Positions 4,684-16,315 of a stretch of DNA of 16,315 nucleotides are shown here, piece after piece (the first letter of the stretch is position 1; the number at the start of each line of letters is the position of its first letter). Origin of the DNA: Actinomycetota bacterium (lineage in GTDB: Bacteria; Actinomycetota; Acidimicrobiia; Acidimicrobiales; CADCTF01); assembly GCA_019348305.1 (NCBI GenBank), contig JAHWJQ010000024.1:1-16315 (forward strand), written 5' to 3'. Below the pieces are notes generated by a model. The model was not told where the DNA came from. It worked only from the letters and a program-made list of their open reading frames with translations, and did not search any database. Both the position numbers and the translations under genes were made by a program.

Positions 4684-5799
4684 ATGACGGGGGTACGGGT
4701 GCTGGTGGGTACCCGAAAGGGCGCCTTCATCCTCACCACCGACGGGCGGCGCCAGCGGTGGGAGATCGACGGCCCCTTCTTCGGCGGCTGGGAGATCTAC
4801 CACGTGAACGGGTCACCGGCGGACCCCGACCGGCTGTACGCGTCGCAGTCCACGGGATGGTTCGGCCAGCTCATCCAGCGCTCCGACGACGGCGGTCGAA
4901 GCTGGGAGGCGGTCGGCAACGAGTTCCGCTACGACGGCGTGGCCGGCACCCATCAGTGGTACGACGGGACGCCGCACCCGTGGGAGTTCGCCCGAGTGTG
5001 GCACCTGGAGCCGTCACTGGCCGACCCCGACGTGGTCTATGCCGGCGTGGAGGACGCAGCGTTGTTCCTCTCCACCGACGGCGGGCGCACGTGGGGCGAG
5101 CTGTCCGGGTTGCGCGGCCACGGCTCCGGGCCGTCCTGGCAGCCAGGGGCGGGCGGGCTGTGCCTGCACACGATAGTCATCGAGCCTGGCCAACCGGACC
5201 GTATGTTCGTGGGCATCTCGGCCGCCGGCGTCTTCCGGACCGACGATGGCGGCAAGACCTGGCGAGCGGTCAACCGGGGGCTGCGCTCAGAAGGGATCCC
5301 GGACCCCGAGGCCGAGGTGGGGCACTGCGTCCACCGCATCGCCATGCACCCCTCGCGCCCCAGTGTGCTGTTCATGCAGAAGCACTGGGACGTCATGCGC
5401 AGCGACGATGCCGGCGAGTCCTGGTACGAGGTCAGCGGCGACCTCCCGAGCGACTTCGGCTTCGCCATTGACGTCCACGCCCACGAGCCCGACACCGTCT
5501 ACGTCGTGCCCATCAAGAGCGACTCCGAGCACTTCCCGCCCGAGGGGAAGCTGCGGGTGTACCGCAGCCGCAGCGGCGGCAACGAATGGGAGCCGCTGAC
5601 AAGGGGCTTGCCCCAGAGCGACTGCTACGTCAACGTCCTGCGTGACGCCATGGCCGTCGACACTCTCGAACCTTGCGGCGTCTACTTCGGGACCACCGGC
5701 GGCCAGGTCTACGCGTCGGCCGACGCCGGCGACAGCTGGGAGGCCATCGTGCGGGACCTGCCGCCCGTGCTCTCGGTCGAGGTGCAGACCCTGCTGTGA
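4684..5799 (+). CDS. Asp-box (BNR) repeat beta-propeller protein
   Basis: A 371-residue protein with five Asp-box repeats (S-x-D-x-G-x-x-W type): SDDGGRSW (67-74), STDGGRTW (130-137), TDDGGKTW (186-193), SDDAGESW (240-247) and SADAGDSW (345-352). This is the WD40/YVTN/BNR-like family, related in fold to sialidases and sortilin propellers, but the sialidase arginine cluster is not evident, so enzymatic activity should not be assumed. No signal peptide is seen. The ATG at 4684 follows GAGGAGG by six bases. Its stop overlaps the GTG of the MoaD/ThiS-like gene (GTGA), implying coupled expression. The molecular role is unknown; binding of a partner or polysaccharide is possible. Confidence 0.9.
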
Positions 5800-6092
5800 T
5801 CCGGGTCCGGCTGCCCGCCCACCTTCGCACGCTCGCGCAGGTGACCGGTGAGGTGTGCCTGGAGGTCGAGGGCCCGGTGACCCAGCGGGCAATCATCGAC
5901 GCCCTCGAGTCGTGCTACCCGGTGCTGCGGGGGACGATCAGGGACCACGCCACCCACCGCCGCCGGCCCTTCGTGCGCTTCTTCGTGGGCGAGCAGGACG
6001 TGTCCCACGAACCGCCGGACGCCCCTCTGCCCGACGGTGTGGCTGCCGGCGCCGAGCCCTTCTACGTCATCGGCGCCATGGCCGGCGGGTAG
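5796..6092 (+). CDS. MoaD/ThiS-like small ubiquitin-fold protein ending in Gly-Gly
   Basis: A 98-residue protein starting at GTG 5796, overlapping the propeller gene's stop by four bases. It has the MoaD/ThiS pattern: [25 protein letters not shown], a helix with [18 protein letters not shown], the strand [16 protein letters not shown], and a C-terminal GAMAGG ending in Gly97-Gly98. In MoaD and ThiS the free Gly-Gly end is adenylated and thiocarboxylated to carry sulfur. No other molybdopterin or thiamine genes are in the window, and the coupling to a propeller protein suggests a specialised role rather than cofactor synthesis. The fold call is strong; the function is open. Confidence 0.88.
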
Positions 6093-6287
6093 CACCTCGC
6101 ATCGTTTGGGTCCTTTTGGTCGTGACACCCGGTCGTTTGCCCACTGTTGGTCGCCAGGAAGACCCACACGTCGCGCCGCCTCCGTCCTCATCCGACGTGC
6201 CGGTGCCTCAACTCGGTGCTCTTCGTACCGATGGAGGCAAGCGGGAGCGTGACGAAGCGCGTCACCTCCCGACTCGGGGGAGCCGTC
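6093..6287. other. Intergenic region upstream of the TolB-like gene
   Basis: These 195 bases contain no convincing gene. The first part has three imperfect GGTCG(T/C) copies (near 6118, 6131 and 6149) and is slightly less GC-rich than its surroundings, so it could hold the promoter of the next gene. No clear -10/-35 pair was found. The last bases carry the ribosome binding site GGGGGAG (6276-6282). Confidence 0.3.
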
Positions 6288-7580
6288 ATGGAAGTCATAA
6301 AGCGCGGTGCCGGGCCTCGGTGGGTGGCGTCGCGCTGGCTGTTCGCGGCAACGGTGCTGCTCCTTGTCTCGGGGCTGCTCGGCGCGGCGTCGGCTGAGAC
6401 GCGGCGAGGCAACGACCGCCTGTCGGCCGGGGAGGGCAGCGAGCGGGTGGTGGTCGGGAACAACAGGCCCCGCGCCAGCCGTGGTCCTGTTCCGCTCGAC
6501 GCCGGCACCGACGCGGTCCCGGCAACCCTCGCGACGACAACGACCACGCCGCCCGTTCCTGTCTCAGTCGAGGCAGTCCCTGTCCCGGCCCCGGCAACGA
6601 CGCAACAGCCGCGGCGCACTGCAACGCCGCGGCCTGCCGCCCCGAAGCCGGCGACCGCGGCGCCGTTCCGAGCGGGCCCGGACTGCCGGGGGATCTTCGT
6701 CCTCGACCACGCAACGGCCCGCGCCCGCAAACTGGCCGACTCGCCGCGAGGGGTCCACGGCCCAGCGTGGGCCCCTGACGGCTCCCACATCGCCTGGGCG
6801 GTGGCTCAGGAGACCGTGCAGGCCGTCCGCCCTGACGGCAGCGAGCATCGGGTGCTGGCAAAGGGCCGCGTCAACGGCCGTCCCCAGTGGATGCCGGACA
6901 GTGCTGCACTGCTGTGGCCGGATTTCGTCGACCTTCGCCAACCGCCCGAGCACGACGCCTTCGAGTTCGTCCTCACCGACGTCGCAGGCGGCCCAGGCCG
7001 CGTCCTCAACGGCGACAACCCGAACGGGATGGTGGCTCTGTCTCCCGTCGGGACCCACATCGCCTACGTCGCGACCCAGAACCAGACGCTGCGGGTGATG
7101 AGCATCGACGGGAGCGATGACCGCAGCCTCGTCGACTCGATCGGCACCAATCCCGGCTGGTCTCCAGACGGATCCCTCGTGACCTACCAGCGATCGGGTG
7201 GTTTCGCCCTCATGGCCTTCGACCTCGGATCGGGGCAGCACCGCACGATCTACGACGGCAAAGTGGATCAGTACGCGTGGGCGGGTCGGGAGACGGTCCT
7301 GGTGTCCTCCGCCGGCCGCATCCTCGTGCTCGACGCCGGAACCGGCCGGGTGGCCGCGACGATCACCGGCAGCTCGCCCGTCTGGGATCCCGCCCGGGAG
7401 CGGGTGCTGTTCAAGCGCACCATCGACGGCCCGTACAACCGGGTGTTGGAAGCCGCGCTGGACGGGAGCGGTGAACGGGTGCTCATCGAGGACGCGGGCG
7501 CGCAGGTGGACGAAATCAGCCCCGCTCCCCACCGAGAGGGCGGACTGGCCTTCCACTGCAGCATCATCAACTCGAGGTAA
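6288..7580 (+). CDS. Exported TolB-like (PD40) beta-propeller protein
   Basis: A 430-residue protein. The N-terminus is a signal peptide: basic residues, a hydrophobic core WLFAATVLLLVSGLLGA, and a likely cleavage at ASA-ET after residue 36. A low-complexity Thr/Pro/Ala-rich linker follows (about residues 80-130), then repeated propeller blades of the TolB/PD40 type, for example GPAWAPDGSHIAWAV and NPGWSPDGSLVTYQR. Single cysteines near the linker and the C-terminus might form a disulfide. The ATG 6288 is chosen because GGGGGAG lies five bases upstream; an in-frame ATG at 6232 would displace the signal peptide. Such propellers usually bind partners or ligands outside the membrane. No Tol or Pal gene is nearby, so its role is not defined. 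Confidence 0.82.
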   Translation: MEVIKRGAGPRWVASRWLFAATVLLLVSGLLGAASAETRRGNDRLSAGEGSERVVVGNNRPRASRGPVPLDAGTDAVPATLATTTTTPPVPVSVEAVPVPAPATTQQPRRTATPRPAAPKPATAAPFRAGPDCRGIFVLDHATARARKLADSPRGVHGPAWAPDGSHIAWAVAQETVQAVRPDGSEHRVLAKGRVNGRPQWMPDSAALLWPDFVDLRQPPEHDAFEFVLTDVAGGPGRVLNGDNPNGMVALSPVGTHIAYVATQNQTLRVMSIDGSDDRSLVDSIGTNPGWSPDGSLVTYQRSGGFALMAFDLGSGQHRTIYDGKVDQYAWAGRETVLVSSAGRILVLDAGTGRVAATITGSSPVWDPARERVLFKRTIDGPYNRVLEAALDGSGERVLIEDAGAQVDEISPAPHREGGLAFHCSIINSR

Positions 7581-7598: not shown

Positions 7599-7629
7599 GC
7601 TCGGCCGGCTCCCGGTCGGGCGAGCGTTT
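7599..7629 (+). terminator. Terminator-like hairpin after the TolB-like gene
   Basis: GCTCG (7599-7603) pairs with CGAGC (7621-7625), enclosing an inner CCGG/CCGG stem with a short loop. GTTTC follows. The position, 19 bases after the stop codon, fits a terminator, but the T run is short, so efficiency is doubtful. Confidence 0.35.
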
Positions 7630-7740
7630 CGCTGTCCTACCCGCGTGCGATCGTCGTCGCGACGCCGGGTTCGAGGCGTGCGAGGTTGCCGGAGCTGAAG
7701 AAATGACACGGGTGTGACTCGTTTCTGGTACGACTGGGAC

Positions 7741-9321
7741 ATGCGGAGCGGAGACCGCCCCTGGAGGTGCCTGCCGCCGGAGTTGTTCGCGTTCACCAGC
7801 GGCAACCTGCGCGAGCTGCACACCGCCGTGCTGAGCGTCTTCCAGGACGCCGCTGTCCTGCAACCGGCGCTGCGCTTCGACCACGTGCGGTCGGCTCTCG
7901 AATCAGCCGGGTGGGACGAGCCGGTGACGGACGACCAGCTTCGGTTCAGCCTCGACCAGCTCGTGGGCTGGCACCTGCTCGACGTGATGCAGGACCACGC
8001 CGCCCACTACGCCACCCCCGAGGAGTTCGAGCGCCGGAACCTGCAGTGGTCGCTCACCCCCCAGGGCGAGGCGGCCATCGGAGGCGTGCAGTGGGCGCTG
8101 GCCGAGCTGGGCCGGGCCGTCAGCCTGCAGCCGGCGGTCCTCGACGCCATCGCCGACGGGCTCGGCGATCTCCACCGGCTCATCTCCGACGACGCCCGGG
8201 CCATCGACGCGGGGCGGGTGGCGACGACGCTGGCCGCCGTCGAAGGCCACCTGGAGTCGATGATCGCGAGCCTTCGGCAGTTCAACCGTCACCTCCAGCG
8301 CCTGGTGCGCGACGATGCCGCCGACGACGAGGTGTTCCTCGAGGTGAAGCGCCAGACGGTCGCCTACCTGCAGGAGTACATCACCGGGGTCGATCGACCG
8401 ACTCGGCGCGTGGCTGCCGCCATCGCGCGGTTGCGGGACGGGGCGGGCATCGCTGTGCTCCACGACACCGCGCTGCGGGGGGCGAACCTGGCCCCGCTGG
8501 GCCAAGAGGACCCGGCGCCCGGGTGGCTGGCCGAACGGGCCCGTCGGTGGGATGCGCTGGTGGTGTGGTTCGCCCCTGCAGACGGATCAGACCCGAGGAT
8601 CTCGACCCTCCTCGATGTTGCCCGCCAGGCCATCCTCCAGCTTCTTCGGGTGCTCGAGCGGCGATGGGAGGCGCGTCGGCGGTCCGCGTCGGTGGCCGAC
8701 GATTTCCGACGCCTCGCCGGCTGGTTCCGCCACGCCGCCAGCGAGGACGAAGCGCATGTGCTGTTCAACGTGGCCTTCGGTGCTTGGCCGGCCCGTCACG
8801 CCCACCTCCTGCATCCCGATGCCGAGGCCGTCCCGTCGACCGCGAGCTGGCTGGGGGCGGCTCCGGTGGAGGTCGCCCCCTCCCTCCGGGCATCGGGCAC
8901 CATCCAGAACCGGGGGAGGGTGCGGCCCGTCGCCGACCCCAGAGCCGTCCGCGCCCGGCGCCAGCGGGCCCAGGCCGAAGAGCTGCTACGGGACCGAGAG
9001 CTTCGTCGCGCCCTGGCCACGTCGGGGCGCGTGCCGCTGTCGTCCTTCGCCCACCTCGATGCGGCGTCCTTCCGGGAACTGCTCGGGCTCATAGGCGAAG
9101 CCCTGTCCGCCCCCGTCGGCGGCGACGGCCGCCGGCGAGCCCTCAGCGCCGACGGCCAGATCGAGATCGTCCTCATCCCCCCACGATCAGCGCGCACCTT
9201 CGCCGTGATCGTCACCGACGCCGGCCGCCTCACCTCGCCCGACTTCGGCGTGTCCATCGTCTTCACATCGGGCGAGTGCGCTACGCCGATGCCGTCGGTG
9301 GCGGAGGCCGGCGGTGCCTGA
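7741..9321 (+). CDS. jetA: Wadjet type II protein JetA (DUF2397/TIGR02677), kleisin-like subunit
   Basis: A 526-residue protein matching the family paired with the TIGR02680 SMC protein in Wadjet type II. It opens with RPWRCLPPELFAFTSGNLRELHTAVLSVF, the family's typical N-terminal block, continues with winged-helix-like and long helical segments (GRVATTLAAVEGHLESMIASLRQFNRHLQRL), and has AYLQEYITGVDRPT and WLGAAPVEVAPSLRASG blocks followed by basic helices. In Wadjet, JetA is the kleisin-like subunit (MukF-related) that bridges the SMC heads. The ATG at 7741 is used; a GTG at 7714 would add nine residues. Neither has a clear ribosome binding site. The gene overlaps jetB by eight bases. Family assignment rests on N-terminal pattern, length and operon partners. 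Confidence 0.9.
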   Translation: MRSGDRPWRCLPPELFAFTSGNLRELHTAVLSVFQDAAVLQPALRFDHVRSALESAGWDEPVTDDQLRFSLDQLVGWHLLDVMQDHAAHYATPEEFERRNLQWSLTPQGEAAIGGVQWALAELGRAVSLQPAVLDAIADGLGDLHRLISDDARAIDAGRVATTLAAVEGHLESMIASLRQFNRHLQRLVRDDAADDEVFLEVKRQTVAYLQEYITGVDRPTRRVAAAIARLRDGAGIAVLHDTALRGANLAPLGQEDPAPGWLAERARRWDALVVWFAPADGSDPRISTLLDVARQAILQLLRVLERRWEARRRSASVADDFRRLAGWFRHAASEDEAHVLFNVAFGAWPARHAHLLHPDAEAVPSTASWLGAAPVEVAPSLRASGTIQNRGRVRPVADPRAVRARRQRAQAEELLRDRELRRALATSGRVPLSSFAHLDAASFRELLGLIGEALSAPVGGDGRRRALSADGQIEIVLIPPRSARTFAVIVTDAGRLTSPDFGVSIVFTSGECATPMPSVAEAGGA

Positions 9322-10573
9322 GTCGCTGCTCGCCGCCCAGCTCGACGCCGACCGCGGCGTCGCCGTCCGCACGCTGCTGCGCACGCCGATCCTCGATGCT
9401 TCGGCCGATGCCGACGGGTTCGCGGCCGTCGTTCGCACCAAGGAGTGGCTCATCCCTTGGTTCGAGCAGACGTGCGGGTGGACGCTGTCGGTCGACACGG
9501 CGGGGCGCACGGCGCGACTGGCGAAACGTTCGCCCTCACCCGACGCCAGTCGCACGGCACGACGGGCACGAGGCGAGCGGGCGCCCTTCGATCGACGCCG
9601 CTACGAGCTCCTCTGCCTGAGCCTGGCCGAGCTCTCCGGGCACCCCGTGACGACCATCGGCATCCTGGCCGGTGCGCTGGCCGCCGGCGGGCCGGCCCGG
9701 CTCGACACCGCCCGCCACCGCGAGCGGGCGGCGTTCATCGACGCCCTGCTGCTCCTGGCCCGGTGGGGGATCGTCCGCTTCGAAGGTGGCGACCCCGACT
9801 CCTTCGTCGACAACGAGCACGGCAACGCCATGGTCTTCGTCGACACGGGGCGCCTGCACCGGCTCCTCGCCTCTGAGGTCCCGCCGTCGCGTGTCGATGT
9901 CGAGACGACCGAGGCGGCGACGGCGGCGCTGACCGTCGAGCCGCGCTACGGCGAGCCCGATGACCGTGACGACGAGACCCGGTTGCGCTGGATCCGCCAC
10001 TCGATCGCCAGGAGGGTCATCGACGATCCGGTCGTGCACTTCGAGGACCTCACGCCCGAGCAGGTCGCCTATCTCGAGAACCCGGCCGGTCGGAAGTGGC
10101 TCCGCGACCGGATGTCCGAGGCCGGCTTCGTGATGGAGCACCGGGCGGAGGGCGTGATGGCGATCGACCCCGAGCGGGTGGCGACCGACGATGAGTTCCC
10201 GGCGCCGTCGAGCACGGTGAAGCAGGTGGCCCTCCTCCTCGTGGCCAGCTTCGTGCGCGGCGACATCCTCGATCGGCGCGTGCTGGTGGAGGTGCCCATG
10301 CCGGCGCTGACCGATGCCGTCGGTGGGTTGTTGGCGGAGCACCCGGCATGGGCCCGCCAGCACCGCGAAGGGGAGGGGCCTGCTCGTCTTGCCGCGGAGG
10401 CGGTGGCGCTGCTGGCCCGGTTCGACCTCGTCCGGGTGGACCCGCCGACCGAGGAGGGCGGTCCCGAGGTCGTCCGGCCGCGGCCGGCGCTGGCGAGGTA
10501 TGCAGCGGCCGCTCCACGCCTCGTCGGCGCGACCGGCACCCTGTTCGACGACATCGAGGAGGAAGCGCGATGA
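9314..10573 (+). CDS. jetB: Wadjet type II protein JetB (DUF2398/TIGR02678), KITE-like subunit
   Basis: A 419-residue protein of the DUF2398 family. The GTG at 9314 sits inside the 3' end of jetA and has GGAGG (9303-9307) six bases upstream. Recognisable blocks are VRTLLRTPILDASADADGF, RRRYELLCLSLAEL and LLLLARWGIVRFEGG near the N-terminal half, and DDPVVHFEDLTPEQVAYL with RKWLRDRMSEAGFVMEHRAEG later. These are winged-helix-type regions expected for a KITE-like (MukE-related) subunit that binds JetA in the SMC complex. Its last bases form ATGA with the start of jetC. It should act with JetA and JetC in loading on and reeling in circular DNA. Confidence 0.9.
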   Translation: MPESLLAAQLDADRGVAVRTLLRTPILDASADADGFAAVVRTKEWLIPWFEQTCGWTLSVDTAGRTARLAKRSPSPDASRTARRARGERAPFDRRRYELLCLSLAELSGHPVTTIGILAGALAAGGPARLDTARHRERAAFIDALLLLARWGIVRFEGGDPDSFVDNEHGNAMVFVDTGRLHRLLASEVPPSRVDVETTEAATAALTVEPRYGEPDDRDDETRLRWIRHSIARRVIDDPVVHFEDLTPEQVAYLENPAGRKWLRDRMSEAGFVMEHRAEGVMAIDPERVATDDEFPAPSSTVKQVALLLVASFVRGDILDRRVLVEVPMPALTDAVGGLLAEHPAWARQHREGEGPARLAAEAVALLARFDLVRVDPPTEEGGPEVVRPRPALARYAAAAPRLVGATGTLFDDIEEEAR

Positions 10574-13500
10574 GATGGCAGCCGACCCGGGCGGGCCTGC
10601 TGAACGTCTGGCGGTACGACGACGAAGTCCTCACGTTCCACAACGGGCGGCTGCTGCTGCGTGGCGCCAACGGCTCGGGCAAGTCGATGGCGCTCGAGTT
10701 GCTCTTTCCGTTCCTGTTCGACGCGAGCGTGCTCCCGGGTCGCCTGTCGTCGGCTCAGAAGTCACGCGGCGGCCTCTATGACCGACTCATGACCGGTGCC
10801 GACGGCACCGGGCGCATCGGGTTCCTGTGGGCCGAGTTCCGGGCCGGCGAAGAGACGTTCACCATCGGGGTGCGGCTGCGGGCGTCCACCAGCACCCGCA
10901 ACGTCGAGCGCGACTGGTTCACGACGAGCCTCGTGGTGGGCGAGTCGCTCCAGCTGCTCGACGAGGACCGCTCACCCCTGCTGTCCCGCAAGGCCCTCGT
11001 CCACGCGCTCGGCGATTGCGGCACCGTCTACGAGAGCGCCGAGGAGTACCGGGCGTCGGTTCGGGCGCACCTGTTCGCCGGTTTCGATGTCCGCCAGTAC
11101 GACGCGGTGATCACGACGTTGCTCGCGCTGCGCCAGGAGAAGGTGTCCCAGGACCTGACGCCCGACAAGCTCTCCGAGATCCTGACCGCGTCGCTCCCGC
11201 CCGTCGACGAGTACCGCATCACCGAGGTGGCCGAGGGTTTCGAGCGCCTCGACCGCCGGAAGGCGAGCATCGAGCAGCTCGAGGCCGACCTCTCGGTGAT
11301 CAAGCGCCTCCAGCGCCAGAACCGCACCTACGCCCGCACGATTCTTACGGCCATGGCCGGGCGGGTGCGCTCGACGCAGAACGAGCGCGACGCGGTGACC
11401 CGCGACGAGCGCACCACGGGCGCGCAGCTGGAACAGGAGGGGGCCGAGGAGCACCGCGTCGAAGACGACCTGGCGGCGGCCGAGCAGACCATGGCCACCC
11501 TCGCCGCCGAGGTCGATTCCCTCAAGAACCTCGATGCCTACAAGGCCGGCGGCCAGCTCGTGCCCCTTCGGGAAGAGGCGCGACGGGCCCGGGGTCGGGC
11601 GGGTGCGGAGGACGCGGCCGCAGCCGAGACGAACGACGAACTGCGGCGGGCCGAGGACGAGGTGGCCGACGCCAGTCACCGCCTGGGCGCGGCATCGTCC
11701 GCCGAACGGACGGCACGAGACGACGTGACCCGGTTGGGCGACGACGCCGACGCCGCCGCCATCGTCGACGAGGTCGCCGGCCTCGAGCCAGACGCCGCGG
11801 ACGCGATGGTGTGCGCGTGGCTCACGACGAAGCGGGCGGCCAGCCGCGAGGTGCGGGAGGCGCTGTCGCGCCTCAAGGCGGCGATCGTCGAGCGAAGGCA
11901 TCGCGAGGAAGCGGCTGAGGAGGAACGGTCCCTGCGAGCTGACGCGGTGACCGCCGCGGCCGCAGCTGAGGCCGCGATGGTCGACGCCGTCGCGACCTTC
12001 CGTGGTGAGATCGCCACATGGGCGTCGGGGTGCCGCGCTCTTGATCTGGAAGCGGTGCGCCACAGCCTCTTGCATCACGAGCGGGGCGCCGACCCCCGCG
12101 CCGCCTTGGCGCTCGTCGCCAGAGTGGCGGCACCGGCGCTCGAGGCGTTGGCCGTGCGGCGGGCGCAGGCGGAGGTCGACCTCGCCGACAACCACGCCGA
12201 CGCGGCCAACCTCGGCGAGGAGCGGGCCGCGCTGGCGGCCGGGCGCGCACCAGAGCCGGAGGCCGCGCTGTGGCGGACGCCAGGCGCCCGGGAGGGCCGC
12301 GCCGGCGCCCCCCTGTGGCGGCTCCTGGACTTCCATGCCGATGTCACGACGGTCGAACGCGAGGGAGTGGAATCGGCGCTCTCGGCCGTCGGGCTGCTCG
12401 ACGCCTGGGTCGACGCCAGCGGCGCACTCGTCCTGCCAGAGCCCGTGGCCGACGCCTTCGCGGCGCCCTTCCTGCCTTCGCCGACGCAGCGGTCGCTGGC
12501 CTCGGTCATCGTGGCCTCCGGCGCGGAGGATGGTGAGGTCCCCGTCGAGGTGGTGGAGGCCATCCTGGCGTCGGTGGTGCTTGTCGACTCGGTCATCGGC
12601 GTCGAGCCGGGGGAGGGGCGACCGGCGGTCGGCCTCGACGGCACGTTCCGATTCGGGCCCCTGGCCGGCCGGGGGCCCGACGCCCGCGCCCGGTTCATCG
12701 GCACCGCCGCCCAGGAGCGTGCTCGACGCGATCGGATGGCAGAGATCGACGACGAGCTCGCCGCCCTGGCTCGCGCCGCTGCCGAGATCGGCCACGGCAT
12801 CGAGGTGCTCGACCGCGAGCGTTGCGCCATCGACGCGGAGGTGGCCTCGTTCCCAGCGGGCGACGCAGTCGAGGACGCCAGGCTGGCCCACGAGATCGCT
12901 CGCCAGCGCGCCCACGATGCCGCGGGCCGGGTCGAGCGGGCGGTGCAGCAGTTGCGCCAGGCCGAAGAAGCGGCCCGCCAGGCGCAGCTAGCCCTCACGC
13001 GGCTGGCGGCGGCGCACCGGTTGCCGACCGATCCGGACGCGCTCGACGAGTACGACGAGCGGCTGGTCCGCCTCGACCGGGCCGTGGCGGCGTGGACGAA
13101 CCGGCGCCGAGACGCGGCGCGAGCGGTGGCGGCACTGACGGCGGCTGAGCGCGCCCGTGATCGCGCCGTGGCCTCGGCCCAGAACGCCGCTCGCCGCCGT
13201 GAGGACGCCGAGCGCGAGGCGGCCGACCTCGAGGCCCGGCTGCGGGCGCTCGACGAGACGGTGGGGGCCAGCTTCCGGGAGGTACAGGATCGGATCGACG
13301 CGGCGCTGGTGGAGCGACAGCGCCAGGAGACCGCGGCAAAGTCACTGCGCATCCGGCGGGTCGAGTTGGCCAAGGCCGTTGCCACCCTCGAGGCCAAGGC
13401 GGCCGAGATCGAGGGCCGCCGCGTCGACGTCGAAGCTCGCCGAGAGGAGGCTCACCGTCAGTTCTCGGCCGGCGTCTCCGACGGTCTGGCGGCCGATGCC

Positions 13501-14598
13501 GACATCCCCCTTCCTCACGAGGAGCTCGCCGGCGTCGGCGACGTCGTCGACGCCAGTCGCGCCGTCCTGGCATCGGCGGGGGACGCGGCGCCCGACGACC
13601 CGGCGCTCTCGCGAGCCGAGGGCCAGCTGCACGAGACGCTTCATGTGGCCCGCCAGTCACTCCTCGGCCGTATCGAGGTGACCCTCGACCAGTCCGACGG
13701 TGGTTGGTGGACGTTGCGGACCACGAGCGGCGGTCTCCGCCGGTCGGTCGCGGCGACGGTGATGGCACTCCAGGGCGACCTGCTCGCCGCGCAAGAGGAG
13801 TTCCGCGACGACGAGCACCGGTTGTTCGACGAGACACTGTCGGGCAACGTCCGCGTCGCCGTCGCTGAGCGGCTCCGTCGGGCCCGCCAACTGGTCGACG
13901 GCGTCAACGACGAACTCGTGGAGGTCCGAACCGAGGCCTCCGGAGTCGGCGTGCGCCTGAAGTGGGAGGTCGACCCCGAGCAATCGGCCGCCGTGCGATC
14001 AGCTCGCAACCTCCTGTTGAGAGACGCCGCCGACTGGACCGAAGACGAGCGCCAGGGGATGTACGCCTTCTTCCGGGCGCGCCTGGCCGATGCCCGGGCC
14101 CGGCTCGACGGCACCGCAGGATGGGAGGACCGCCTTCGCGAGGCGCTCGACTACCGGCGCTGGCACCGCTTCGTGCTCGAGCTCAGGCACCAGGACAGCG
14201 ACGGCTACCAGGCGGCGACGGCCCAGCGGCTGGCCCGGCTCTCGACGGGCGAGCGGTCGATCGCGCTGCACCTCCCGATGCTCGCCGCCGTCGCCGCCCA
14301 CTACGACGGGGGCGGCACGCCGTCGGACCTGCCGGGGTGCCCGCGCTTGATCCTGCTCGACGAGCTGTTCGCCGGTGTAGATGTGGTCAACCGCCGCCAG
14401 CTTTTCGGCATGTTCGTGGCATGGGATCTCGACGCCATCTTCACGAGCGACCACGAGTGGTGCGCCTACGACAGCCTCGACGGCATCGCCATCCACCACC
14501 TGCATCCCGCCGAGCCGGGCGAGCCGGTGACGACGTCTCGCTTCGTGTGGGACGGCCGCGAGCGGCGCACCGCGCCACTCGAGCTCGTCTCGACGTGA
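10570..14598 (+). CDS. jetC: Wadjet type II protein JetC (TIGR02680), SMC-like ATPase
   Basis: A 1342-residue SMC-type ATPase, the motor of the Wadjet complex. The N-terminal head holds Walker A GANGSGKS (residues 32-39). Long Ala/Arg/Glu-rich coiled coils run from about 230 to 570 and 715 to 1170. Between them lies a globular hinge-like region (about 575-715, starting PLWRLLDFHADVTTVEREG). The C-terminal head holds the ABC signature LSTGER (1224-1229) and Walker B LILLDELFAGVD (1260-1271), so ATP binding and hydrolysis should be intact. The ATG overlaps the jetB stop (ATGA) and follows GAGGAGG (10556-10562) by seven bases. In characterised systems JetC with JetA and JetB extrudes plasmid DNA loops and presents small circles to JetD for cutting. 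Confidence 0.95.
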   Translation: MRWQPTRAGLLNVWRYDDEVLTFHNGRLLLRGANGSGKSMALELLFPFLFDASVLPGRLSSAQKSRGGLYDRLMTGADGTGRIGFLWAEFRAGEETFTIGVRLRASTSTRNVERDWFTTSLVVGESLQLLDEDRSPLLSRKALVHALGDCGTVYESAEEYRASVRAHLFAGFDVRQYDAVITTLLALRQEKVSQDLTPDKLSEILTASLPPVDEYRITEVAEGFERLDRRKASIEQLEADLSVIKRLQRQNRTYARTILTAMAGRVRSTQNERDAVTRDERTTGAQLEQEGAEEHRVEDDLAAAEQTMATLAAEVDSLKNLDAYKAGGQLVPLREEARRARGRAGAEDAAAAETNDELRRAEDEVADASHRLGAASSAERTARDDVTRLGDDADAAAIVDEVAGLEPDAADAMVCAWLTTKRAASREVREALSRLKAAIVERRHREEAAEEERSLRADAVTAAAAAEAAMVDAVATFRGEIATWASGCRALDLEAVRHSLLHHERGADPRAALALVARVAAPALEALAVRRAQAEVDLADNHADAANLGEERAALAAGRAPEPEAALWRTPGAREGRAGAPLWRLLDFHADVTTVEREGVESALSAVGLLDAWVDASGALVLPEPVADAFAAPFLPSPTQRSLASVIVASGAEDGEVPVEVVEAILASVVLVDSVIGVEPGEGRPAVGLDGTFRFGPLAGRGPDARARFIGTAAQERARRDRMAEIDDELAALARAAAEIGHGIEVLDRERCAIDAEVASFPAGDAVEDARLAHEIARQRAHDAAGRVERAVQQLRQAEEAARQAQLALTRLAAAHRLPTDPDALDEYDERLVRLDRAVAAWTNRRRDAARAVAALTAAERARDRAVASAQNAARRREDAEREAADLEARLRALDETVGASFREVQDRIDAALVERQRQETAAKSLRIRRVELAKAVATLEAKAAEIEGRRVDVEARREEAHRQFSAGVSDGLAADADIPLPHEELAGVGDVVDASRAVLASAGDAAPDDPALSRAEGQLHETLHVARQSLLGRIEVTLDQSDGGWWTLRTTSGGLRRSVAATVMALQGDLLAAQEEFRDDEHRLFDETLSGNVRVAVAERLRRARQLVDGVNDELVEVRTEASGVGVRLKWEVDPEQSAAVRSARNLLLRDAADWTEDERQGMYAFFRARLADARARLDGTAGWEDRLREALDYRRWHRFVLELRHQDSDGYQAATAQRLARLSTGERSIALHLPMLAAVAAHYDGGGTPSDLPGCPRLILLDELFAGVDVVNRRQLFGMFVAWDLDAIFTSDHEWCAYDSLDGIAIHHLHPAEPGEPVTTSRFVWDGRERRTAPLELVST

Positions 14599-15809
14599 CC
14601 GGGGCCGCTCGCGCCAGCCGCCCGGACCTCGAGCCGCTGTGGGAGGAGTTGGCGCGGCGGTTCTCGGCGTCGGACCGGCCGGTGACGTCGGTCACCGTCC
14701 GGCACCTCTCCGACCAGTCGCGCACGGCGTTGGCCGACCTCTTGGGCCTCGAGCGTCTTCCGCCGCCGTCGCCTCGCGTGCGGGTCGGCGAGGTGGCGCG
14801 GGCGCTCGGCGTGTCTGGTGAGGAAGGGGTGCGGGCAGCCGTCGAGGAGCTCGTGGGGCCCCTCGGCAACCGCTCCCTCGAACGGCGTCAGGACCGGGCC
14901 CGGCGGGAGGCGCTGTGGTCGTGGCTCGAAGGCGAGGCTGCGCGCCTCGACGTCGCCGAATGGTCGCGCTCGGTGCGCAGCCAAGGGATTCCGGGCGGGC
15001 ACGTCGCCGCCCATCGCCTTCGCCTCGAACGGGCGGTGGCCGTGCTCGATCGGGTCCTGGCGCCGGCCGCACGCCCTTCCGTGCTCGCCCACATTGCGGC
15101 CGATGTGCTCGGTGATCCGCACGCGCTGGATCCGGGCCAGCCCATCGCCGCCCTCGTCGTCGACGCCCTCGCGCTGCGAGGTGGCAGCGGCCGCGTTCGC
15201 CGGGCCGAGGTCGTCCGGGCGGTGTGGTCCTCGGCCGGCGTGGCGACGGACGAGCTGTCGCCGACGGTGCTCCTGTTCCACCTCGCCGGCGTTCCCCTGC
15301 CCGAGAACGTCAATCCGGTCGACTCGACGTGTGCGGCCATGGCCCAGGCCGGTGAGCCGGTCGTGCTCACCCTGTCGCAGCTCCAGCGCTGGTCCCTGCG
15401 TCCCGCCGCTTCTGACGTGCTCGTCGTCGAGAACCCGTCGGTCGTCGCCCATGCGTCGCATGAGGGGTATGCCGCCGCCCCGGTGGTGTGCACCGGAGGA
15501 TGGCCCAACGTCGCCGTGCTGACGTTGCTCCGCCAGTTGGTTGCCGCCGGGTGCCGGCTTCGCTGCCATGCCGACTTCGACCCCGCTGGAGTGCTGATCG
15601 TCCGCCATCTCGTCGAGCTCTTCGACGCCCAGCCGTGGGAGATGACGGCGACCGCCTACCTGTCCGCGGCCGACCGGTCCAGCGTTGCCTTCGACGGATC
15701 GGTGGCCGATACGCCGTGGGACCCGGCGCTGGCGGCGGCTATGCGACTACGGCAACGGGCCGTCTTCGAAGAGGACGTCCGTCACACGATCACAGAGGTG
15801 CCGAAGTAG
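14595..15809 (+). CDS. jetD: Wadjet type II protein JetD (DUF3323 + DUF2399 Toprim nuclease)
   Basis: A 404-residue protein starting at a GTG that overlaps the jetC stop (GTGA). The N-terminal part (ELARRFSASDRPVTSVTVRH..., through HRLRLERAVAVLDRVL) matches DUF3323, and the C-terminal part is the Toprim-like DUF2399. Catalytic residues are visible: Glu279 in VVENPSVV and the DxD Asp327/Asp329 in CHADFDPAG. In Wadjet, JetD is the nuclease that cleaves DNA once the SMC complex has reeled in a small circle. Length is normal for the family and no frameshift is seen. It ends the operon; 458 bases of non-coding DNA follow before the next gene. Confidence 0.94.
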   Translation: MTGAARASRPDLEPLWEELARRFSASDRPVTSVTVRHLSDQSRTALADLLGLERLPPPSPRVRVGEVARALGVSGEEGVRAAVEELVGPLGNRSLERRQDRARREALWSWLEGEAARLDVAEWSRSVRSQGIPGGHVAAHRLRLERAVAVLDRVLAPAARPSVLAHIAADVLGDPHALDPGQPIAALVVDALALRGGSGRVRRAEVVRAVWSSAGVATDELSPTVLLFHLAGVPLPENVNPVDSTCAAMAQAGEPVVLTLSQLQRWSLRPAASDVLVVENPSVVAHASHEGYAAAPVVCTGGWPNVAVLTLLRQLVAAGCRLRCHADFDPAGVLIVRHLVELFDAQPWEMTATAYLSAADRSSVAFDGSVADTPWDPALAAAMRLRQRAVFEEDVRHTITEVPK

Positions 15810-15825
15810 TAGCGACTCGCCTCGG

Positions 15826-15838
15826 ACGGAAATTCCGT
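15826..15838. repeat. Short inverted repeat after jetD
   Basis: ACGGAA-A-TTCCGT is a six-base inverted repeat around one central base, 16 bases after the jetD stop. It is AT-rich compared with its surroundings. As RNA it would form ACGG/CCGT around AAATT, too weak for a terminator. It could be an operator half-site pair; there is no further evidence. Confidence 0.25.
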
Positions 15839-15876
15839 TGACCGCGCCTCGCCCGTCTTGCACCATCACTTCTCCT

Positions 15877-16032
15877 ATGGCACGCAGGCTCACCGCCGAA
15901 CGAAAAACGCTCGAGGGCCAAGCCCTGTCGGGCTTCGGCGGGTACGCGTGGCCACCCGGAACAGTCCTCGACCACGAGGCGACGCCGGGGCGATGGGATG
16001 CTGCCGATACCGGCAGACCCATGCGCTGGTAA
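15877..16032 (+). CDS. Possible 51-residue ORF, doubtful
   Basis: ATG 15877 opens a frame (MARRLTAERKTLEGQALSGF...) ending at TAA 16032. No family is recognised and no ribosome binding site is convincing. The same bases form three hairpins, so the stretch is more likely part of a structured RNA or leader than a gene. It is listed so the interval is described. Confidence 0.15.
   Translation: MARRLTAERKTLEGQALSGFGGYAWPPGTVLDHEATPGRWDAADTGRPMRW
15917..16021 (+). other. Run of three hairpins between jetD and the tRNA-like elements
   Basis: Three stems occur in about 100 bases. The first is AAGCCC/GGGCTT (15920-15925/15930-15935) with loop TGTC, extended by GCC/GGC past a bulged C. The second is CCTCG-ACCA-CGAGG (15966-15979). 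The third is CTGCCG-ATAC-CGGCAG (16001-16016), extended by TGGG/CCCA (15994-15997/16018-16021). All have tetraloops. In GC-rich DNA such stems can arise by chance, but three in a row before two tRNA-like folds suggest a structured RNA. No known RNA family was recognised. Confidence 0.3.
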
Positions 16033-16081
16033 CGCACCGCCCTCCTGGCCGAAGTTCCCAGCGTCCTCCCCTTGGCCTCGA

Positions 16082-16143
16082 GCCAGTGGTGGCGTAGCGG
16101 TCTTCCAAAACCGATGACCGGCGGTTCGAGCGCCTCGCTGGTA
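16082..16143 (+). ncRNA. D-armless tRNA-like element with UCC loop (degenerate tRNA or tRNA mimic)
   Basis: GCCAGTG (16082-16088) can pair with CGCTGGT (16136-16142), using two wobble pairs, as an acceptor-like stem. Inside, CGGT/ACCG (16098-16101/16110-16113) closes an eight-base loop containing TCC (16104-16106) flanked like a glycine anticodon. GGCG/CGCC (16120-16123/16131-16134) closes a GTTCGAG loop like a T arm shifted by one base. Only nine bases occupy the D-arm place. It cannot be a standard tRNA. It may be a decayed tRNA-Gly or part of a tRNA-mimicking RNA. Confidence 0.35.
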
Positions 16144-16166
16144 GCGCTTCACCGATCCAACTTCAC

Positions 16167-16238
16167 GTGGTCGTCGTTCAACGGCGAGGACCTCAGGATG
16201 CCACTCTGAGGATGCGGGTTCGACTCCCGCCGGCCACA
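16167..16238 (+). tRNA. Complete 72-nt tRNA cloverleaf, anticodon GCC (tRNA-Gly-like; possibly a tRNA mimic)
   Basis: All four arms form. Acceptor GTGGTCG pairs with CGGCCAC (16167-16173/16231-16237, one G-T pair), followed by A16238. The D stem is GTTC/GGAC (16176-16179/16188-16191) with a loop containing GG. The anticodon stem is TCAGG/TCTGA (16193-16197/16205-16209) with loop ATGCCAC, giving GCC at 16200-16202. The variable loop is GGAT. The T arm is GCGGG-TTCGACT-CCCGC (16214-16230). CCA is not encoded. Oddities for tRNA-Gly are U2-A71 instead of C2-G71, an A at position 32 and a C at 38. A competing stem CCTCAG/CTGAGG (16191-16196/16206-16211) would open the loop to nine bases. It lies directly in front of an rtcB-like gene, so a Y-RNA-type mimic is the main alternative. 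Confidence 0.5.
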
Positions 16239-16267
16239 CGACGACAACGACAGAAAGGAGGGGTGCC

Positions 16268-16315
16268 GTGCCCACCAACCTCAACGACAGGCTCATCTCC
16301 TGGGCCAGTGAGATC
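16268..16315 (+). CDS. rtcB: Probable RtcB-family RNA ligase, N-terminus only (cut by window edge)
   Basis: A GTG at 16268 follows a near-perfect ribosome binding site AAAGGAGG (16254-16261) by six bases. The 16 visible codons read MPTNLNDRLISWASEI. The LNDRLISWAS opening is typical of one group of RtcB proteins, which join RNA ends carrying 2',3'-cyclic phosphate or 3'-phosphate to 5'-OH ends using Mn2+ and GTP. None of the catalytic residues are inside the window, so the call relies on this short motif and should be confirmed from downstream sequence. The leader contains the GCC cloverleaf, ending 15 bases before the ribosome binding site. Confidence 0.6.
   Translation, partial: MPTNLNDRLISWASEI

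Follow-up and report, generated by a model that had tools for sequence, protein, structure and literature searches.

Which kind of RNA is encoded directly in front of the rtcB-like gene at the right end of this locus, and does it form a unit with the ligase? In the window, by which we refer to the entire analysed stretch of 16315 bases, the initial annotation had described two tRNA-like folds, a full cloverleaf and a D-armless fold, next to the ribosome binding site of the gene, and had proposed that they might constitute a Y RNA of the YrlA type, a tRNA mimic linked to RtcB or a real tRNA that is co-transcribed with rtcB. Since the right end of the window cuts rtcB, only the left edge of the tRNA-array/rtcB unit is visible. 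We have compared the region with related loci.

Organization of the locus

The elements of the region, which from sequence comparison we regard as very likely to be correctly assigned, are listed from left to right:

15838 to 15866, plus strand: promoter-like pair TTGACC, 17 nt, CACCAT (by eye, comparison of eight leaders)
15873 to 16052, plus strand: conserved array leader with a 51-codon ORF, putatively coding, at 15877-16032 (blastn to relatives)
16071 to 16129, plus strand: 5' part of a tRNA-Trp-like gene, decayed, neither acceptor nor T stem intact, anticodon loop of 8 nt (blastn, stem comparison)
16130 to 16131, plus strand: junction between the first array tRNA on the left and the sequence preceding tRNA-Gly on the right (blastn blocks against L208)
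16131 to 16166, plus strand: homologue of the stretch before tRNA-Gly in L208, 8593-8628 (blastn)
16167 to 16238, plus strand: tRNA-Gly(GCC) with A as discriminator and U33 retained, CCA not encoded (ARAGORN, Rfam, alignment)
16255 to 16261, plus strand: ribosome binding site AAGGAGG (read from the sequence)
16268 to 16315, plus strand: first 16 codons of rtcB with GTG as start, truncated at the right end of the window

The assignment of the gene following the folds as rtcB-like was confirmed in our comparison. Although the window holds only the N-terminal 16 codons from the GTG at 16268, MPTNLNDRLISWASEI, the stretch 16269-16315 resembles the rtcB starts of relatives with up to 91% identity over 47 nt in blastn searches, and the identity of the ligase is documented in one relative, where the gene at 1498-2655 of L178 encodes an RtcB protein (PF01139, E 3e-112). 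Across the whole window, ARAGORN places a tRNA-Ser(TGA) at 279-363 and a tRNA-Gly(GCC) at 16167-16239, and the same two tRNAs are found above threshold in Rfam, which detects no other family. The tRNA-Ser is located directly 3' of the apparent end of a PheA gene, and a complete type II Wadjet operon comprising JetA, JetB, JetC and JetD (7714-15809) is found directly upstream of the leader.

tRNA arrays in related rtcB loci

Related loci were collected by comparing an RtcB of the same type from a mycobacteriophage (L038) with 396 genomes of the phylum (45 matches at E ≤ 1e-50), a closer RtcB with 298 genomes of the order of genome G276 (58 matches at E ≤ 1e-40), which had given the best match (70%) among 296 genomes for the end of PheA in the window that served as kinship marker, and the RtcB of L178 with 395 genomes of the class (24 matches at E ≤ 1e-130). 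From part of these matches, 40 rtcB loci of 38 related actinobacterial genomes were examined over at most 20 kb each. Thirteen of these loci, located in 11 genomes, carry arrays of 3 to 25 tRNA genes that share one strand and are located within the unit or next to it. The arrays of the type closest to the window contain 10 (L184), 15 (L208), 5 (L215), 11 (L216), 19 (L218) and 13 (L222) tRNA genes, the others 25 (L226), 8 (L240), 3 (L254), 25 (L259), 25 (L260), 3 (L261) and 6 (L263), where the low counts of L184, L215, L240, L254 and L261 reflect contigs that break off close to rtcB. In L226, the start of the last tRNA precedes that of rtcB by 2.5 kb, and the arrays of L259 and L260 each cover 19 amino acids. 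A tRNA array unit is defined by at least 20 tRNA genes at high density, a number that is reached in L226, L259 and L260, while the window with its single tRNA and a remnant stays below it.

The arrays are carried by several families, since the family of G524, of which 10 genomes were sampled, includes only three of the 11 array genomes, and they display at least three tRNA orders. Conversely, 27 of the 40 rtcB loci show no array (22 with at least 3 kb of upstream sequence and five with less), indicating that this ligase does not need one. Genome-wide, Rfam detects 40 tRNAs in G444 and 57-73 in the others of seven array genomes. A gene of the rtcA family (PF01137) is absent in all six array genomes searched, with E. 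coli scoring positive as control.

In the closest relatives, the comparison of sequences reveals a shared order, with a promoter-like pair followed by the leader, the Trp-like gene, a series of tRNAs ending in tRNA-Gly(GCC), rtcB and further tRNAs, in several cases together with TROVE. The leader of the window (15873-16052) is 77% identical to that of L208 over 183 nt (E 2e-34), with weaker matches in the arrays L184, L215, L216 and L254 and also in L212. For its ORF, dN/dS ranges between 0.28 and 0.54 in four of 28 pairs and between 0.6 and 1.5 in the others. The other seven leaders contain, as judged by eye, a TTGAC(A/G) element that a spacer of 16-17 nt separates from a -10-like box in the corresponding position, and a consensus scan found no sigma-70 site at 15838-15866.

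A separate search of genome contigs with a narrow pattern, a tRNA-Gly(GCC) followed by an rtcB start, returned five matches (L001-L005) that we treat as chance. Among them, the genome of L002 lacks RtcB and L005 contains no tRNA gene and by eye no rtcB, whereas for L001, L003 and L004 the scan was confined to tRNAs. Being narrow, the pattern misses true cases. In viral contigs, a degenerate pattern of the rtcB start did not provide any match.

The tRNA-Gly gene and the tRNAs of related arrays

The full cloverleaf that the initial annotation had recognized at 16167-16238 belongs to a real tRNA-Gly(GCC), which is called by ARAGORN and scores 49.9 bits in the Rfam model RF00005, compared to a cut-off of 29. 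We have aligned ten copies of this tRNA, nine with the anticodon GCC, among them that of the window, and one with TCC; in this alignment 97.6% of the cloverleaf cells are paired. Changes on both sides of a pair, which had been suggested as a check in related genomes, are found at nine of 21 pairs, compared to a mean of 4.3 in shuffled alignments and with none of 500 shuffles reaching nine. This pattern of substitution indicates that the tRNA-Gly is under structural constraint. As in the window, the tRNA nearest upstream of rtcB is a tRNA-Gly(GCC) in each of the six closest-type arrays (L184, L208, L215, L216, L218 and L222). In four of six array genomes, a strict pattern identifies a canonical-looking tRNA-Gly(GCC) on another contig, and in these genomes the array gene is consequently an extra copy. 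A similarity of the tRNA of the window to tRNA-Gly(TCC) of enterobacterial and vibrio prophages and plasmids (about 74-78% over 60-70 nt) was dismissed as ordinary resemblance between tRNAs.

The array copies of this tRNA carry unusual residues at two positions. In bacteria, the identity base for glycine is U73. In contrast, the discriminator is an A in all nine copies of tRNA-Gly(GCC), in the window and in eight out of eight array copies, and the tRNA of the window thus does not contain the bacterial glycine base. Position 33, which in tRNAs is almost always a U, is occupied by a C in seven of nine array copies, whereas the copy in the window has kept U33. Together, A73 and C33 may impair charging or decoding of the array tRNA-Gly(GCC).

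In other array tRNAs, the discriminator often fits the amino acid (Asp 9/9 G, Trp 3/3 G, Phe 7/7 A, His 3/4 C), and many of them therefore look chargeable; unusual is a C at this position in Tyr of L208, Leu of L218 and Asn of L226. The CCA end is encoded in 41 of the 157 plus-strand tRNAs of 11 array loci. Deviations at position 33 extend beyond tRNA-Gly, which accounts for eight of the 29 cases where, in loops defined by the structures of ARAGORN, a C or G is found among 163 tRNAs of 12 array loci (including L313). The corresponding numbers are 1/119 in phage arrays near rtcB, 9/153 in viral loci near TROVE and 1/27 in single tRNAs, resulting in p-values for the excess in arrays of 7e-7, 0.0016 and 0.085, respectively, with the counts not being independent. 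Changes in the anticodon loop have been proposed to shield phage tRNAs from nucleases (van den Berg and co-workers, PMC10264068), and by analogy those of the array tRNAs may be similarly protective.

Origin of the second fold

The D-armless fold at 16082-16143, which had been proposed as a potential tRNA mimic, has in our comparison found a different explanation. Although its letters are present, they combine the 5' part of a Trp-like gene with sequence that in a relative directly precedes tRNA-Gly, so that the fold corresponds to a decayed or fused tRNA-Trp-like gene and not to a mimic. In blastn searches, 16071-16129 shows an identity of 81-88% (E 2e-14) to the tRNA or tRNA-like gene that opens the arrays L208, L215, L216, L218 and L222, and this first gene is called tRNA-Trp(CCA) by ARAGORN in L208 only. 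Compared to its relatives, the copy in the window has retained three of seven acceptor pairs (six or seven in relatives), three of five T-stem pairs (five in relatives) and in total 13 of 19 cloverleaf pairs (18 or 19 in relatives), and it contains one extra base in the anticodon loop. Its D stem of 3 bp is retained, and the acceptor that had been proposed earlier, pairing 16082-16088 with 16136-16142, uses letters from the D-arm of the Trp-like gene and is not homologous to the acceptor of this gene. Neither Rfam at E ≤ 10 nor ARAGORN detects a tRNA at 16082-16143, whose minimum free energy structure is one long hairpin instead of a cloverleaf (-27.2 kcal/mol, z -1.7, with 10 of 200 shuffles as good). 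Covariation in the Trp-like element is uninformative, with one pair changing on both sides and 169 of 500 shuffles scoring as high.

The two parts of the fold meet at a junction that is apparent from the blastn comparison of 15800-16315 with the arrays, which yields three collinear blocks comprising the leader, the Trp-like gene and the region from tRNA-Gly to rtcB. The last of these, 16131-16315, matches L208 from the sequence before tRNA-Gly into rtcB at 78% identity (E 8e-39). Between the second and third block (7602-7658 and 8593-8778), L208 contains 934 nt with eight tRNA genes, which are absent from the window, and the simplest reading is that the window has lost this stretch. We infer, from one contig near its end, that a deletion has joined the Trp-like gene to the sequence preceding tRNA-Gly. 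Erosion is also found elsewhere: in L212 the leader and rtcB are present with no detectable tRNA between them apart from a match of 29 nt, and in L213 rtcB is preceded by a Gly-like remnant that has degenerated, with a single tRNA-Arg located 1.4 kb upstream.

TROVE genes and the Y RNA question

The initial annotation had linked the folds to Ro60, the partner of Y RNAs. This link has found a counterpart in the relatives, where a TROVE gene follows six related arrays, and none in the window, which ends in rtcB. In L218, the gene following the array encodes a TROVE protein of 521 residues (PF05731, 41.5 bits compared to a cut-off of 23), which matches the solved TROVE structures 9l5y and 9kop at an E-value of 4e-38 and Ro60 (1yvp) at 0.003. 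Of 7996 candidates scored in public protein sets, 2712 are related to this protein at E ≤ 1e-60. A Pfam scan with the frameshifted copy of L222 found nothing.

In tblastn searches at E ≤ 1e-8, TROVE was detected in L216, L218, L222, L254, L259 and L260, as well as in shorter stretches covering the same sites, all of which are arrays, and in no array-less locus. Restricted to loci with downstream room, defined as at least 3 kb or a TROVE gene seen, this corresponds to six of 10 arrays compared to none of 20 array-less loci (Fisher p 3.5e-4, uncorrected for relatedness), and irrespective of downstream room to six of nine compared to none of 24 (p 7.6e-5). A TROVE search of 286 genomes of the class identified four positives, each with a same-strand tRNA gene about 0.7 kb or less upstream, which are two of the arrays already described, a short contig where a tRNA-Ile adjoins the gene, and L313. 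In the latter, TROVE is found with Lys-Ser-Gln-Gly-Leu tRNAs, much as in L260, and with no rtcB in the stretch examined. As there are also arrays without TROVE (L208, L226, L261 and L263), the parts of the unit are separable. Downstream of the unit in L218, the region 4762-6635 contains an integrase gene near a tRNA-Arg(CCT), which suggests an integrative element, and, between TROVE and the integrase, a winged-helix protein with a weak nucleotidyltransferase match (E 0.026).

The combination of rtcB, Ro60 and tRNAs that had motivated the assignment as Y RNA is thus, on the basis of these sequences, real in relatives, whereas an RNA of the YrlA type is not supported. Besides tRNA, no Rfam 15 family is above threshold in the window; a permissive search of 15790-16315 (E ≤ 10) returned nine matches, of which only tRNA-Gly reaches the cut-off and none is a Y RNA, and in seven related array loci all 93 matches are tRNAs and none belongs to a Y RNA family, with the restriction that Rfam 15 may lack a YrlA model. 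In Y RNAs, the stem that binds Ro60 is made by the ends of the RNA. As a candidate for such an RNA, we have considered a structured insert that separates the Asn and Gly genes of L215, L216 and L218, with a length of about 75 nt, which blastn finds twice per locus in opposite orientations and which we therefore read as a mobile repeat. No further candidate came to notice. In L218, the copies are located at 10916-11001 and 8740-8816, one apparently between the acceptor and the D-arm of a Cys-like tRNA gene.

Proposed function and alternative explanations

On the level of sequence, the homology of the leader, the Trp-like gene, tRNA-Gly and the rtcB start to their counterparts in relatives is evident, as are the arrays and TROVE genes of the latter and the intact cloverleaf of tRNA-Gly. 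Among the three possibilities raised for the RNA, a real tRNA transcribed together with rtcB fits best: the tRNA is located directly before rtcB, and the two would be co-transcribed. We consider it probable that the window ends in a tRNA-array/rtcB unit, whose array has become eroded and which would serve as a stress kit against tRNA damage; for the latter function, which is proposed by analogy, we see the chances as about evenly balanced.

In the proposed mechanism, the leader, the tRNAs and rtcB would be transcribed jointly from the promoter-like pair before the leader, and the inducing condition would be the cutting of tRNAs, by anticodon nucleases of rivals, toxins or phage defence, or a block of translation. 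The array would deliver fresh and partly altered tRNAs, permitting translation to continue after tRNA cleavage, RtcB would reseal the cut tRNAs and the Ro60-like protein, where present, would hold or sort damaged RNA. The copy in the window would retain the ligase and at least one spare tRNA-Gly.

This functional assignment draws on precedents in Anabaena, Salmonella and jumbo phages. In Anabaena PCC 7120, a silent trn operon of 26 tRNA genes and rtcB share the repressor TrcR, which is relieved by inhibitors of translation elongation (PMC10272220). Antibiotic resistance is reported to decrease when trn is lost (cited in PMC10272220), whereas in a trcR mutant the deletion of either trn or rtcB left the resistance to kasugamycin or BMAA unchanged (PMC10272220). 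The likeness lies in the large extra set of tRNAs and an rtcB under the same regulator; as differences, rtcB of Anabaena (all3526) is located separately on the chromosome and the tRNAs on a megaplasmid, whereas here rtcB is found in or beside the array, and no Ro60 is noted in the covered parts of PMC10272220, whereas here TROVE follows some of the arrays. The Salmonella operon rsr-yrlBA-rtcBA, which is induced by cut tRNAs, similarly unites a Ro60-like protein, RtcB and tRNA-shaped RNAs in connection with tRNA cleavage (PMC7790460). It differs by its Y RNAs, rtcA and control by RtcR, whereas the related arrays contain up to 25 tRNA genes bearing anticodons and PF01137 is absent in the array genomes searched (6/6). 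In jumbo phages, the covered literature discusses tRNAs, RNA ligases and TROVE jointly as RNA repair. Dense rows of extra actinobacterial tRNA genes are also known from the tRNA array units of Mycobacterium, which are distributed over chromosomes, plasmids and phages, generally without common flanking features (PMC5966550); in contrast to the arrays described here, which are adjoined by rtcB or TROVE, neither ligase, RtcB nor TROVE is mentioned in the main text of that study.

The occurrence of mycobacterial arrays on chromosomes, plasmids and phages (PMC5966550), together with the integrase gene and tRNA-Arg(CCT) following the unit in L218 and the phage arrays that precede rtcB in 10 of 80 viral loci, would be compatible with an ordinary tRNA-Gly that by chance resides before rtcB, with arrays being neutral passengers of phages or integrative elements and with no joint function. 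We regard this as unlikely in view of the presence of rtcB in or beside arrays at 13 loci of 11 genomes, with several families and at least three tRNA orders, the confinement of TROVE to array loci and the both-sided changes that preserve the cloverleaf of tRNA-Gly. An artefact, where an array in a metagenome contig was collapsed at a tRNA repeat during assembly, might be suspected since tRNA arrays are hard to assemble and the contig ends 16 codons into rtcB. It appears most improbable to us, given that the two sides of the junction share few bases, whereas assemblers, by our reasoning, need longer shared words, and that natural erosion is found in L212 and L213.

Highly unlikely is also a YrlA-like Y RNA or RtcB-linked mimic, a non-decoding RNA that would either tether Ro60 or act as substrate or regulator of RtcB. 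The TROVE genes following six related arrays and the departure of tRNA-Gly(GCC) copies with C33 and A73 from the usual features of decoding and charging would be in line with such a role, but no Y RNA family was found at Rfam thresholds nor at E ≤ 10 in 15790-16315, the tRNA-Gly of the window is a full cloverleaf with U33 and the insert between Asn and Gly in three arrays is a repeat occurring twice per locus in both orientations.

An extension of the stress-kit reading, which we offer as a conjecture that is rather improbable, would regard the islands as systems of tRNA replacement and repair, where RtcB, a Ro60-like protein and a near-complete second set of tRNAs, part of which is altered at position 33 so as to resist anticodon nucleases, are produced jointly, and where some members of this set, above all tRNA-Gly(GCC) with C33 and A73, would no longer decode and instead serve Ro60 like a Y RNA. 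If true, the arrays would illustrate a possible route from tRNAs to Y RNAs. Little is known about the RNA partners of bacterial RtcB and Ro60, or about what bacterial tRNA arrays are for; with a ligase, Ro60 and up to 25 tRNAs in one locus, likely partners can be named and both questions become testable in a single operon. Such a locus also provides a concrete setting for the idea of tRNA-derived Y RNAs. The individual pieces have precedents, and in the titles and opening abstracts of the open literature we have found no publication on an rtcB gene within a bacterial tRNA array, nor on a TROVE gene following such an array. A survey of RNA repair systems by Burroughs and Aravind from 2016 reportedly includes TROVE and may touch on the combination.

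Counterparts in phages

Phage tRNA clusters (PMC7824862, PMC10264068; L086-L105 and L275-L305) resemble the described loci by arrays upstream of rtcB or near TROVE, and differ in that the latter loci reside in bacterial genomes. An rtcB downstream of a phage tRNA array was found in 10 of 80 viral loci (L044-L123); in these ten, L086, L089, L090, L092, L093, L094, L098, L103, L104 and L105, an rtcB of the same type follows arrays that end in tRNA-Glu(CTC). Within the stretches examined, none of 35 scanned viral TROVE loci contained an RtcB of the same type. Seven of these 35 (L275, L281, L282, L293, L300, L301 and L305) hold at least 16 tRNAs, with numbers ranging from 16 to 33. Two of the seven, L300 and L305, look like copies. 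In L282, 30 tRNAs are located upstream of TROVE.
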